A stretch of 64,000 nt of DNA, from assembly GCA_023409995.1 (NCBI GenBank), contig JAEYQN010000031.1, positions 1 through 64,000 of the forward strand, written 5' to 3'. This document shows positions 20,460 through 33,910 of the stretch, in pieces. The position numbers and the translations under genes are program-made. How positions within the stretch are numbered: position 1 is the stretch's first letter; every line of letters begins with the position of its first letter. Source of the stretch: Cyanobacteria bacterium OH_CBB_238 (GTDB lineage Bacteria; Cyanobacteriota; Vampirovibrionia; Gastranaerophilales; Gastranaerophilaceae). Below the pieces are notes generated by a model, which did not search any database, had not been told where the DNA came from, and saw nothing but the letters and a program-made list of their open reading frames with translations.

Positions 20460-21725
20460 TTAAATTTTGTCCCACCCTGTGTATTTCTGAAGAACTTTTG
20501 GTATTGAAATAGAGCCATCTTCGTTTTGGAAGTTCTCAAGTATTGCTGCAAAAGTTCTTCCAACAGCTAGTCCTGAGCCATTTATAGTATGCACAAACGC
20601 TGGCTTTCCTGTGGCTTTTGATCTATAGCGAATATTTGCTCTTCTTGCTTGGAAATCACCAAAGTTAGAACAACTTGATATTTCTTTGTAGGCGTTATAA
20701 GAAGGAAGCCATACTTCAAGGTCAAAACACTTTTGGGCAGAGAAGCCAATGTCTGCTGAACATAGTGCAATTCTTCTATAAGGTAGTTCCAGTAGTTCTA
20801 AGATCTTTTCTGCATTTAGGGTTAGTTTTTCATGCTCTTCAGGGCTATCTTCTGGAAGGCAAAGTTTTACAAGTTCAACTTTATTAAATTGATGTTGTCT
20901 TATAAGACCTCTGGTATCTTTTCCGGCAGAACCGGCTTCACGTCTAAAGCAAGGAGTGTATGCAGTCATATATTTAGGAAGATCTTCCTCATTAAGTATT
21001 TCATTTGAGTATACGTTTGTTACTGGAACTTCGGCTGTTGGAATTAAATATAAATCTTCTTCCTCACATTTATACATATCTTGTGCAAATTTTGGAAGTT
21101 GTCCTGTTCCTGTCATTGCAGCTGAATTAACTAATACAGGAGGAAGCATTTCTTCATATCCATGAAGATTTGTGTGCGTGTCTAAGAAAAAGTTAATTAT
21201 TGCCCTTTCTAATTGAGCTCCTTTTCCTCTATATAGTGAAAATCTTGATTGAGAAAGTTTTACACCTCGTTCAAAATCAACCAAGTTTTTCTCAACTGCT
21301 ATATCCCAGTGAGCTTTTAGTTCAAAATCTTTGTTTGTAGGTTCTGAGAAGGTTTTTACCACGACATTGTCATTTTCAGATGTTCCTATTGGTGTTGTTT
21401 CATCTGGTGTGTTCGGGATATTCAAAAGAGCGGTTTTTTGTTGCTCATCAAGTTGGATTTCTTGCTCTTCTAATTCTTTTATGCTGTCACCCATTTCTTT
21501 TACTTTAGATTGGATTTCATCAGTATTTTTGCCTTCTTTTTTCAATACGCCTATCTCTTGAGAAATGGATTTTCTTTGAGATCTTAACTCGTCGGCTTGA
21601 GTTTGTATTTTTCTTCTTTTTACATCTATTTCAAGAACAGAATCAATCGATAAATCAGGATTTCTTCTTTTTAATAATTCATTTACTTTTTCGGGATTTT
21701 CTCTAATGCTTTTAATATCCAACAT
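20460..21725 (-). CDS. serS: Seryl-tRNA synthetase
   Basis: A class II synthetase of 421 aa. The N-terminal antiparallel coiled coil (about 25-105) binds the long variable arm of tRNA-Ser. The catalytic core contains motif 2 ([24 protein letters not shown]) read across 253-275, and motif 3 ([17 protein letters not shown]). RTFAAILEN near the end is typical. AGAGGTAA lies upstream of the ATG. It heads a leftward serS-tmk-RWYD-folE2-dapL-hisH run. Confidence 0.98.
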
Positions 21726-21856
21726 GATAAATTACCTCTTTTCTAAGATAATATTAGTAAAAATAAATAAAAAATGGAAGTTTGAATTATTTTATTAATA
21801 TTTTGGAACTTTGTTTGTTTTATGTTAACTTGTAGATAGACTTGGGGGAGAAACAA

Positions 21857-22543
21857 ATGACTCTTATAAAAGAAGGGGAAACTAAAAAAGTTTTCTCAAC
21901 TGATTCTGATAAAACAGTTTTGATTAAATTTAAAGATCTTTTAAATAATGCTGAATCAAATGAGTTTGTAGACTTAACTACGAGAATAAATTCTTATATG
22001 TTTTCAAAGTTGGCCGGCATTGTTTCATCGCAATTTGTTAGAAGTGCTGATTTTGACTCTTTTTTTGCAAAGAAAGTTGAAATGGTTCCATTGACATTTT
22101 TTCTACATAATTTTGTAGCTGGTTCTCTTGCTGTTCGTAATAGCTATAACGTAGGTGAGTGGTTTCCTTATCCGTTTTTAGAGTATATCATTACTGACGA
22201 AGAAAAAGGAAAACAATATGTAGGAGAGCCTGAGGTTGTTCGACAAGAAATTCTTAATTATTCTCAAATAGATGTAATGGTTGAGTTTGCAAGAAAAGCA
22301 AACCAAGCTTTGTGGTCTGATTTAAGAAAAAAGAATCTTTATCTTATTGATGTAAAGCTTAAATTTGGCTGGGATTCTGATCGCAATATAATATTAGCTG
22401 ACGAAATTACTCCATATAATTGCAGGTTCTGGCTAAGAACAAATGGCGGCGCATTGGATTTTGATATCTATAGAGATAATCCAACTGATCCCCAAAAACT
22501 GTTAAATTCATATAGGCAAATAGCTGAAATGCTTGGGTGCTAA
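21857..22543 (+). CDS. purC: Phosphoribosylaminoimidazole-succinocarboxamide synthase
   Basis: SAICAR synthetase, step 8 of IMP synthesis. At 228 aa it has the N-terminal EGETKKVF nucleotide loop, KDLLNNA, the short FLHNFVAGSLAVR segment, LIDVKLKFGWD and ADEITPYNCRFW. In the usual sequence these last read DFKLEFG and DEISPDTCRLWD, so some positions are altered, but the acidic metal ligands remain. I start at the ATG 21857 because GGGGGAG lies 7 nt upstream. It is followed by an atypical purQ, the order purC-(purS)-purQ common in bacteria, but purS and purL are not here. Confidence 0.92.
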   Translation: MTLIKEGETKKVFSTDSDKTVLIKFKDLLNNAESNEFVDLTTRINSYMFSKLAGIVSSQFVRSADFDSFFAKKVEMVPLTFFLHNFVAGSLAVRNSYNVGEWFPYPFLEYIITDEEKGKQYVGEPEVVRQEILNYSQIDVMVEFARKANQALWSDLRKKNLYLIDVKLKFGWDSDRNIILADEITPYNCRFWLRTNGGALDFDIYRDNPTDPQKLLNSYRQIAEMLGC

Positions 22544-22574
22544 ATTGGGTAGTTATAAGCGTAGTGAGTACTAA

Positions 22575-23231
22575 ATGAAGGTCGCAATAATTGTTTTCCC
22601 TGAAATGAATTCTGATATCGACTTATTTAAGGCATGTGAAACAGCTGGTTGGTATCCTGAATATGTTTATTATAGTCAAAATAGTTTAGATAGCTTTGAA
22701 CTTGTAATCCTGCCTGGTTTTAATTCTTGTAGTGAGAATGATTCTCATATTCAACAGGCAGTCTATTCGCCTATTATTACCGAGGTTAAATCGTTTAATT
22801 TGCAAAAAAAGGGCGTTATTCTGGGAATTTCCAGTGGGTTTAAAATTCTTTGTGAAATTGGTCTTCTTCCTGGGGATGTTGTACCTAATGAAAATGGTAA
22901 ATTTATATGTACAGATAGCGATTTGACTTTATATGAATATGGAGTTGCAAGGAAAGTTGTTCTTCCAATTGCGCATTCTGTTGGCAAATTTGTTGTTAAT
23001 CCTAAAATATTGAACTATTTAGAAGAAAATAATATGGTTTTTCTTCAATATGTAAGAACTCCAAATGGTTCAGTTGGGGATATTGCCGGCCTTATTGATA
23101 GAGAAAAGGGAGTTGTTGGAATGATTCCACATCCTGAAATATTTGCTTCTGGAGTTAATGGTCATGAAGATGGAAAATTGATTTTGAAAATAATTGAAAA
23201 TCTAGTTGATGAAGTGAAAAGCAGGGTTTAA
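22575..23231 (+). CDS. purQ: PurQ-like protein lacking the catalytic cysteine
   Basis: A 218-aa homologue of the glutaminase subunit of formylglycinamidine ribonucleotide synthetase. The overall PurQ pattern is intact: IVFPEMNSD start, ILPGF, ILCEIGLLPG, PIAHSVGKF and MIPHPE with H186 and E188. The nucleophile elbow normally reads GICNGFQ; here it is GISSGFK, so residue 86 is Ser (TCC at 22830-22832). The upstream YGDYLR-type loop is also lost (FNSCSENDS). Three changes in one motif argue against a sequencing error. Glutaminase activity is doubtful. It could be a structural subunit for an ammonia-using synthetase, or have a new role. It follows purC by 31 nt. Confidence 0.85.
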   Translation: MKVAIIVFPEMNSDIDLFKACETAGWYPEYVYYSQNSLDSFELVILPGFNSCSENDSHIQQAVYSPIITEVKSFNLQKKGVILGISSGFKILCEIGLLPGDVVPNENGKFICTDSDLTLYEYGVARKVVLPIAHSVGKFVVNPKILNYLEENNMVFLQYVRTPNGSVGDIAGLIDREKGVVGMIPHPEIFASGVNGHEDGKLILKIIENLVDEVKSRV

Positions 23232-23275
23232 ATTTTTAAGTTCCTTTTTATGTTGTGATGTTGTATTATGATATT

Positions 23276-23650
23276 ATGCTAGGGATGTTTTCAGTATTTA
23301 TAGGTGGAGGAATTGGTGCCTTGTTGAGGTACTTAATTTGTTCTTTTTATGCAAAGTCTTGTTCGGTGGGTTTTCCTTATCATACGTTTGCAATAAATGT
23401 CATTGGTAGCTTTATTTTAGGGTTTTTTATTTATGCTTTCAATACTAAAACCGGTGTTGATACAAATTTTAAATTATTTTTAACAGTTGGTATTTGTGGC
23501 GGGTTTACCACTTTTAGTACTTTTTCTGTAGAATCGCTTCACTTATTAAAGCAAGGTAGAGTATTAGAGTTTTTTGCCTATACATTTGGTAGTGTTTTCA
23601 TTTGTCTTTTGGGTGCGGCAATAGGAGCATATTTTGCAAAATTTGTTTAA
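23276..23650 (+). CDS. crcB: Fluoride efflux channel CrcB/Fluc
   Basis: CrcB exports fluoride through a dual-topology inner-membrane dimer. About 124 aa with four hydrophobic segments. Conserved features are GGxxGALLRY near the start, AINVIGSFILGF, the Phe-box GGFTTFSTFS and a final YAFGSV-type helix. The start is uncertain: ATGs at 23255, 23276 and 23285 are all in frame and none has a good Shine-Dalgarno; 23276 best matches family N termini. There is no room for a fluoride riboswitch between purQ and this gene. Its end overlaps the next gene by 17 nt. Confidence 0.92.
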   Translation: MLGMFSVFIGGGIGALLRYLICSFYAKSCSVGFPYHTFAINVIGSFILGFFIYAFNTKTGVDTNFKLFLTVGICGGFTTFSTFSVESLHLLKQGRVLEFFAYTFGSVFICLLGAAIGAYFAKFV

Positions 23651-24572
23651 AAAAAGGGTATTGTTTGTTGGAATGCCTGATATGGCATTGATTTGTTTTT
23701 CACGATTATATGATGCTGGTATAAATATTGTTGCTGCTGTTCCACCATCCAAGTCAGAGCCTACATACAATTATTTTATGGATTTTGTTGGGCAATATTC
23801 TATTCCCATTATAAGTTATGAAAATTCGATGAAAGATCCTGCATTTATAAAAAAAATTCTAGATGTTAATGCTGATATTGCTGTTGTATGCTCGTATAAT
23901 AGATTATTTCCAAGTGAATTTTTGAATACAGCAAAAGACGGGTTTATAAATGTTCACCCATCTCTTTTACCCGATTATAGGGGAGGAAATCCTTATTCTC
24001 ATGTCATTATCAATGGTGAAACAGAGACTGGAGTTACTTTACATTTTATGGATTCGACATTTGATACGGGAGATATAATATCTCAGCATAAGGTTCCATT
24101 GGATAAAACAGAAACAATGGGTACTTTATTTACAAGGTTAAATTATTTGGCTTCTGATGCTTTAATAACAGCGCTAAGGTTTTACAATGAACATTCTACT
24201 CTTCCACGAGTTCCACAACCTGATGGTATTTTTAAAAAAGCTAATGCAATTGATATAAAATTTGGGAATAATATTATTGATTGGAGTAAGTCAGCAGAAG
24301 AATTAGAAAGATTTATACGTTCGTTAAATCCGTTTATTTCTGCATTTACCAGATTTAGAGGTGATTTTTTCAAAATTCACACTGCGCATTTTGAAAAAAA
24401 GAAAACGAAGTATTCACCAGGCACTATTTGTTGTATCAAGGATAAGTTAGGTGTGGCATGTGGTGAAGGTATCTTGTATTTAAAAATTCTACAAGCTGCA
24501 TCCTACTTTATTGGTGATTCTAAGGATTTCATAAGATTATACAAACCTAATATTGGAGAAAAATTTGAATAA
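23634..24572 (+). CDS. Second formyltransferase (Fmt-like)
   Basis: A 312-aa protein with an N-terminal formyltransferase domain and an Fmt C-terminal domain. Catalytic residues are visible: Asn and His in INVHPSLLPDYRGG and Asp in STFDTGDII. The C-terminal part (SPGTICCIKDKLGVACGEG, LQAASYF) is of the methionyl-tRNA formyltransferase type. A more canonical fmt lies beside def at 32945, so this is a paralogue whose acceptor may differ (a tRNA, sugar nucleotide or amine). Start: TTG at 23634 with AGGAG 7 nt upstream inside crcB. Its ATG-less start and overlap suggest coupling with crcB. Confidence 0.8.
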   Translation: MQNLFKKRVLFVGMPDMALICFSRLYDAGINIVAAVPPSKSEPTYNYFMDFVGQYSIPIISYENSMKDPAFIKKILDVNADIAVVCSYNRLFPSEFLNTAKDGFINVHPSLLPDYRGGNPYSHVIINGETETGVTLHFMDSTFDTGDIISQHKVPLDKTETMGTLFTRLNYLASDALITALRFYNEHSTLPRVPQPDGIFKKANAIDIKFGNNIIDWSKSAEELERFIRSLNPFISAFTRFRGDFFKIHTAHFEKKKTKYSPGTICCIKDKLGVACGEGILYLKILQAASYFIGDSKDFIRLYKPNIGEKFE

Positions 24573-32363: not shown

Positions 32364-32945
32364 GTGGCTATAAAAAAAGTATTAAAGTATGGTGATCCTG
32401 TATTAAGACAAAAAGCTACAGAAGTTCATAAAGTTTCAAAAAAAATTCAGTTACTTATAGATGACCTTTTAGATACTATGTATTCTCAAAATGGAGTTGG
32501 TCTTGCTGCACCACAAATAGGAATTAGTCAAAGAATTTTTGTTATTGATACCTCTTCGTCTAATGAAACTCCACGCCCAATGGTTTTTATAAATCCAAAG
32601 ATAATAAAAAAAGCTGGGGCTATGATTAGTAGTGAAGGTTGTTTGAGTTTTCCAGAGGCATTTACTTCTGTTAGAAGATATAGTAGCGTAACAATTAAGG
32701 CCCTTGATAGAAGAGGAAAGCCTTTTATTATTGAGGCTAGTGATGATGAACTTCTGGTTAAAGCCATTCAGCATGAAAATGATCATTTGGATGGAATATT
32801 ATTCATCGATCATTCTCGAAATAGATTCGAAGCAGACCAAATATTATCAGAAAAAGGCTTGCCTCCGGTTGATTCCAGTTATCTTTTAGAGGAAGAAGAA
32901 TTAGAAGCAATGATCTTGCAATCTGGTAATCTGGAGAGTAAGTAA
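32364..32945 (+). CDS. def: Peptide deformylase
   Basis: Removes the N-formyl group from nascent proteins; a metal enzyme of 193 aa. The three motifs are GVGLAAPQIG, EGCLSFP (metal Cys) and QHENDHLDG (HExxH form). The start is GTG at 32364 with TGAGGA 7 nt upstream. The stop overlaps the fmt ATG by one base, giving the usual def-fmt pair. Confidence 0.97.
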   Translation: MAIKKVLKYGDPVLRQKATEVHKVSKKIQLLIDDLLDTMYSQNGVGLAAPQIGISQRIFVIDTSSSNETPRPMVFINPKIIKKAGAMISSEGCLSFPEAFTSVRRYSSVTIKALDRRGKPFIIEASDDELLVKAIQHENDHLDGILFIDHSRNRFEADQILSEKGLPPVDSSYLLEEEELEAMILQSGNLESK

Positions 32946-33910
32946 TGTTAAGGGTTGTCTTTCTTGGAACTCCCCAAATAGCTGTCAATAGTATAATGAA
33001 ACTCTTGAATTTTGCTGATATTAAAATTCTTGGTGTTGTTACTCAGCCAGATAGGCCTTCTGGTCGTGGTAAAAAATTGCTTGAGCCACCAGTAAAGTCT
33101 TGTGCTATAGCAAATTCAATTCCTGTTTTTCAGACAGCTTCTATAAGAAAAGATAAGGCATTAATTGAGGAATTAAAAAGTTTAGAGCCTGATTTTTTTA
33201 TTACTTTTGCTTTTGGACAAATTCTTTCTCAAGAAGTTCTTGATATTCCTAGAATTGCAACAATAAATTTGCATGCTTCTTTGTTGCCTAAACATAGAGG
33301 AGCTAATCCAATACAAAGATCGATATATAATGGTGATTGTGTCACAGGAATATCTACCATGATAACGGTCTTAGGTTTAGATGCCGGAGATGTATGTCTC
33401 TCGGAGCAAATAGTTATAGATGAAAATATGACAAGTCCTGAGTTAGCTATTCAAATAAGCGATAAGGCTCCTTTTCTTTTGTATAAAACTCTTAAAGGAT
33501 TGAGTTCTAATGATCTTGTTCCTCAAAAGCAGGACGAATCACTAGTTACATTTGCTAATAAATTTTCAAAAGAAGATGGATGGATTGATTGGAATAAATC
33601 GTCAAAAGAGATTCATAACCAAGTAAGATCTATGTTAGATTGGCCTTGTGCATATACAAAATTTGATTCAAAAACAATAAAAATTATGGAGACAAGAATA
33701 GTTCAGGAAGATTTGGATAAAGGTGATATTCTTCCTGGTACGATTTTAAAAGTTCAAAAAACCAGTGGAATATATGTAAAAACTAAAGATTCTGTTATCT
33801 TGATAACTAAGGTGAAGCCAGAAAATAAGGCTCTTATGAGAGCGTTTGATTGGTCTAATGGTATTCAGTTAAAGGTAGGTATGAAATTTCAACAGGAGGC
33901 GCCGATCTAA
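32945..33910 (+). CDS. fmt: Methionyl-tRNA formyltransferase
   Basis: Formylates initiator Met-tRNA using 10-formyl-tetrahydrofolate. At 321 aa, the N-terminal VVFLGTPQIAV, QPDRPSGRGKK, the catalytic INLHASLLPKHRGANPIQRSI (Asn, His) and LDAGDVCL (Asp) are present, followed by the Fmt C domain (WIDWNKSSKEIHNQVRSM). It is coupled on both sides: 1-nt overlaps with def and aroH. It is the canonical fmt; a second copy is at 23634. Confidence 0.97.
   Translation: MLRVVFLGTPQIAVNSIMKLLNFADIKILGVVTQPDRPSGRGKKLLEPPVKSCAIANSIPVFQTASIRKDKALIEELKSLEPDFFITFAFGQILSQEVLDIPRIATINLHASLLPKHRGANPIQRSIYNGDCVTGISTMITVLGLDAGDVCLSEQIVIDENMTSPELAIQISDKAPFLLYKTLKGLSSNDLVPQKQDESLVTFANKFSKEDGWIDWNKSSKEIHNQVRSMLDWPCAYTKFDSKTIKIMETRIVQEDLDKGDILPGTILKVQKTSGIYVKTKDSVILITKVKPENKALMRAFDWSNGIQLKVGMKFQQEAPI

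Follow-up and report, generated by a model that had tools for sequence, protein, structure and literature searches.

In the glutaminase of FGAM synthase, PurQ, the catalytic residues form a Cys-His-Glu triad. The text available from one study (PMC3261824) describes a PurQ-like fragment, Memar_1841 of Methanoculleus marisnigri, which is without the triad, lacks about 150 residues, is clustered with purS and purC, and is suspected by its authors of being in decay. For SAICAR synthetase (PurC), the residues of the ATP and SAICAR site are given for human PAICS in the available part of PMC9376930, with Glu97 and Asp137 as the magnesium ligands. In the open-access papers searched, nothing was found that joins PurQ with Gastranaerophilales or PurQ with pseudoenzymes, and nothing that joins PurC, purine biosynthesis and Melainabacteria. 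The bacterium from which the present sequence derives is related to the gut-dwelling cousins of cyanobacteria.

We analyzed a 64-kb stretch of its genome (contig JAEYQN010000031.1, hereafter the window), in which a gene for a PurC-like protein lies directly upstream of a gene for a PurQ-like protein (P0001). The features of the window referred to below are:

20460-21725, minus strand: SerS of the window, compared with L196 2233-3501 of genome G049
21857..22543, plus strand: PurC-like protein (SAICAR synthetase family), 228 aa, a presumed pseudoenzyme by PF01259, TIGR00081 and the residue check
22575..23231, plus strand: PurQ-like protein P0001, a presumed pseudoenzyme; Ser86 replaces the catalytic Cys and the glutaminase loop is lost
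22830..22832, plus strand: TCC codon of Ser86, aligned with the nucleophile Cys (read from the sequence)
23255..23650, plus strand: CrcB-like fluoride channel gene (a start near 23276 also fits); PF02537, 101.1 bits
23634-24572, plus strand: second, Fmt-like formyltransferase; 176.3 bits, under the fmt cut-off of 201.5
32945-33910: normal fmt; 284.1 bits
34311-35468, plus strand: divergent PurD-like ATP-grasp protein between fmt and infB; TIGR00877, 173.3 vs. 288 bits

P0001 is a PurQ homologue in which the triad reads Ser-His-Glu, as the initial annotation had proposed. Its scores lie below the curated NCBIfam cut-offs (NF002957, 156.9 vs. 212 bits; TIGR01737, 141.3 vs. 177.8 bits), its predicted structure has the PurQ fold, and a chance match to PurQ was ruled out by the strong profile and fold match. 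Among 43 columns that are each at least 95% conserved across 75 canonical sequences, 14 are altered in P0001, including most of the loop, and 14 are lost in P0002, 9 in P0019 and none in P0018; the claims that the YGDYLR loop had gone while the His-Glu pair and the fold remained were borne out. The losses of P0001 affect 11 of the 16 pocket columns and 3 of the remaining 27, the list of pocket columns having been compiled after the losses were known. Ten conserved columns (including G10, G49, F50, G53, D54, G59 and N87) are gone in both P0001 and P0002, and because these losses are common to both, the pocket was probably gone before the two proteins, now 52% identical, split. At the level of sequence it is well supported that P0001 has lost ordinary glutamine hydrolysis, in agreement with the earlier argument from the missing Cys. 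An Rfam scan of positions 21700-23800 gave no match at the gathering threshold.

In two protein searches the sequence nearest to P0001 was P0002 (52% identity), followed by P0018 and P0019 (46%). The catalytic triad is intact in P0018; P0019 has Gly in the Cys position (G-H-E), and P0002 has kept the Cys, but both His186 and His134 have been replaced by Cys (C-C-E). As to whether the Ser86 form is conserved in close relatives, a point raised by the initial annotation, the position holds Gly in P0019 and Cys in P0002 and P0018. In the phylogenetic tree P0001, P0002 and P0019 form one clade (support 100/96) with three differing catalytic lesions, and the intact P0018 splits off earlier (96/78). 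P0001 has a long terminal branch (0.77), and its clade is placed, with weak support (72/70), outside the 65 PurQ sequences from a sample of 383 genomes (the family of G005, taken out of a larger group), all 65 of which are C-H-E. A scan of genome contigs with P0001 found no relative, and the next scan used SerS. The sequence P0017 gave 0/41 matches in the genus of G001, a set without a positive control, and viral contigs contained 11 PurQ-like loci with 29-35% identity.

The PurC-like gene begins with an ATG behind a strong Shine-Dalgarno sequence (GGGGGAG), although a TTG at 21842 is also possible. Its product matches PF01259 (Pfam SAICAR_synt) across 209 residues with 111.8 bits against a cut-off of 20, and reaches 91.6 bits against the cut-off of 189.9 in NCBIfam TIGR00081. 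For the residue check, 16 of the 24 ATP- and SAICAR-site residues listed for human PAICS in the available text of PMC9376930 were picked where the PurC of genome G038 has the human residue; the PurC-like protein was aligned to G038 PurC, and human numbering was transferred through G038 PurC, which aligns collinearly with 2h31_A. Eight of the 16 positions are altered (human Lys17, Thr40, Glu97, Lys131, Asp137, Glu193, Asp212 and Lys228), both magnesium ligands among them, a ninth, Asp133, is Glu, and seven are unaltered (Gly16, Lys19, Asn43, Lys191, Asp207, Arg215 and Arg232), so that the ATP, metal and substrate residues of a PurC are incomplete in this protein. The changes of Glu97 to Thr and of Glu193 to Lys are common to the PurC-like proteins of the window and of G049, the latter of which retains Asp137 as aligned. 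A protein database search with the PurC-like sequence matched only the sequence itself.

PurC matches occurred in 2 of the 383 family genomes, G038 and G049. G038 has an intact operon with the gene order purC-purS-purQ-purL-purF-purM-purN (gene names were read off the translations; those of PurQ, PurC and PurL are also backed by searches). In G049, serS, a divergent PurC-like gene, crcB (L196 1007-1381) and the fmt-like gene stand in the order seen in the window, minus PurQ, so that crcB again comes after the PurC-like gene. In the searched G049 genome no PurQ, PurL or ThiC was found and PurH was present; the completeness of the searched genomes is not given, and single absences of this kind may reflect assembly gaps. 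The PurQ-like gene was either lost from G049 or never there. None of 80 serS loci searched for PurQ, PurC and CrcB gave a match, so that, of the loci read, only the window and G049 (the latter minus PurQ) have this block. The fmt-like gene lies upstream of serS in 26 of the 80 loci, 24 of them among the first 29; the gap between the two genes measures 97-246 bases in 25 of the 26, whereas in L022 it is 1322 bases long and holds an unrelated frame. In Tmk, FolE2, Nfo and the fmt-like protein the window has more in common with G049 than with any of the 80 loci (75, 77, 75 and 63% identity, respectively, vs. 71, 74, 66 and 53% for the best full-length match among the loci). SerS runs against this trend, with 75% identity between the window and G049 and up to 84% with loci that have no PurC/PurQ block. 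Within the 64-kb window, no match was found at E 1e-3 to PurS or ThiC of G005 or to PurL, PurF, PurM or the second PurH piece of G038; PurQ and PurC of G038 matched the two genes described here, and G038 PurN matched only the two formyltransferases.

The explanation that we favor, with moderate confidence, is that the pair is the relic of a purine operon and that both proteins are kept as non-catalytic pseudoenzymes in a binding or scaffold role. The ancestral operon would have been of the purC-purS-purQ-purL type, with two genes left, now beside serS. The Gastranaerophilales lineage would have lost, or would no longer use, the route through AIR, the genome of the window would be without a working FGAM synthase, and both proteins, having lost the residues needed for catalysis, would have been retained as pseudoenzymes. 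As a scaffold or sensor, the PurQ-like protein may bind a ligand or a partner, for which the PurC-like protein is a possible candidate. The open frames, which persist despite the lost catalytic residues, suggest that both genes were kept for another job after the loss of the pathway.

It is unlikely, although it is the likeliest of the alternatives, that both genes are instead remnants in slow decay, with selection nearly relaxed, now without function and heading for loss. The lesions that differ from relative to relative (P0001, P0002 and P0019), the long end branch of P0001 and the absence of PurQ from G049 would all agree with decay, and the PurC-like gene is evolving fast: between the window and G049 (33% amino-acid identity, 208 codons) pN is 0.47 and pS 0.70, the latter near saturation, and the resulting pN/pS of 0.67 (bootstrap 0.55-0.80) is above the values of its neighbors SerS (0.24) and CrcB (0.38). 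However, in none of the 1000 bootstrap runs did pN reach pS, which together with the values of the neighbors indicates that the PurC-like gene is fast but constrained, weakly, and the strong Shine-Dalgarno sequence in front of it also speaks against decay, as does the concentration of the P0001 losses at the pocket (by the post hoc list). Both frames are free of stops and frameshifts despite great divergence, and recent frameshift decay was ruled out by the absence of stops. When either gene was mutated at random in 400 runs with indels ignored, the stop-free runs numbered 7 for the PurQ-like and 2 for the PurC-like gene at 70% identity, one for each gene at 60%, and none for either at 52%. 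This argument is weaker for P0001, because the 52% identity to P0002 is split over two branches and its own branch is therefore shorter; the case for constraint on the PurQ-like gene itself is made from its stop-free frame and from the columns that it retains. Signs of relaxed selection in relatives, which the initial annotation had named, together with a second normal PurQ, as findings that would count against it, were seen in part: evolution is faster and the lesions differ, but the frames are open and the PurC-like gene is constrained.

The proposal of the initial annotation that the PurQ-like protein has a structural part in an FGAM synthase which uses ammonia fared worse and appears improbable to us. 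The protein does retain NGS164-166, Y159, E188 and the predicted fold, and in PurF, which belongs to a different amidotransferase class, a Cys-to-Ser replacement keeps ammonia-dependent activity according to the available text of PMC3261824. The expected partners are missing from the window, however, with no PurS between PurC and PurQ (unlike in G038) and no PurL; the adjoining PurC-like protein has lost active-site residues (8 of 16), G049, which has the same locus, is without PurL and PurQ, and in P0002 and P0019 the site is broken in other ways. That sequencing or assembly introduced the Ser into a normal PurQ, a step of a single base (TCC vs. TGC), is scarcely credible, because 14 conserved columns including most of the loop are altered, too many concerted changes for an error, and the same protein occurs on two contigs in the protein database, one of them perhaps the window's own.

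The proposed retention of both genes as pseudoenzymes can be set beside a wider pattern in these genomes. In the 383 family genomes PurQ and ThiC occur together in 64, PurQ alone in 1 and ThiC alone in 17 (the test value for this co-occurrence is overstated because the genomes are related); of the 65 genomes with PurQ, 64 have ThiC and 64 are without PurC. AIR is the substrate of ThiC. From this co-occurrence and the rarity of PurC, the bacteria of this family probably use the early purine steps to supply ThiC, and so thiamine synthesis, with AIR. Of 41 genomes tested, 40 have PurH, which may serve to process AICAR that stems from histidine synthesis.

Among the 17 genomes with ThiC only, 5 keep the CxxCxxxC/CxxCxxxxC motif, and in the other 12 the ThiC-like frame has no such motif. 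At these 12 loci (L199-L209, L211) the frames are open and 365-429 aa long but lack the C-terminal iron-sulfur cysteine motif, and their genomes gave no PurQ match. In three hand-picked pairs of the motif-less proteins dN/dS was 0.09, 0.25 and 0.20; it was saturated in the pair of intact ThiC genes from G005 and G038. The PurD-like protein of the window is without the GGREHA, GPNTGGMG and CRFGDPE signatures and lies in the same place in G001 and G002. It has matches in 24 of 25 hand-picked genomes, the best one in G027 and in G254 resembling an ordinary PurD. As judged by eye, REH of the N-terminal motif is missing from 23 of the 25 rows read, and dN/dS was 0.14-0.31 in four hand-picked pairs. 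One frame in G005 (L139 14482-16194) reads by eye as a PurN-PurD fusion at the end of a purS-purQ-purL-purF-purM operon.

The ThiC-like and PurD-like data support the idea that pathway enzymes frequently persist as pseudoenzymes in this family. More tentatively, enzymes of AIR, purine and thiamine synthesis in Gastranaerophilales (the PurQ-, PurC- and PurD-like proteins and the ThiC-like proteins without the iron-sulfur motif) might independently have become conserved pseudoenzymes after loss of the route, with a shared new role, e.g., in sensing nucleotide or vitamin intermediates. In these bacteria homology to PurQ, PurC, PurD or ThiC is no proof by itself of purine or thiamine synthesis. 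Related genomes seldom show the intact, the broken and the absent form of an enzyme that outlives its pathway as a pseudoenzyme, and such a comparison is offered here by the intact operon of G038, the broken pair of the window and the G049 locus with only the PurC-like half.

Compared with the PurQ of T. maritima (3d54 chain D), P0001 has Ser in place of Cys, is without the GGFSYGDYLR loop, has no PurS or PurL within the 64-kb window, and scores under the curated PurQ cut-off. It shares with Memar_1841 a PurQ-like sequence without an intact triad, but unlike that fragment it is of full length and predicted to fold. The PurC-like protein shares with PurC the family match and a Foldseek match to PurC structures (from a weak model, pLDDT 69.2), and differs from SAICAR synthetase at half of the active-site positions checked.
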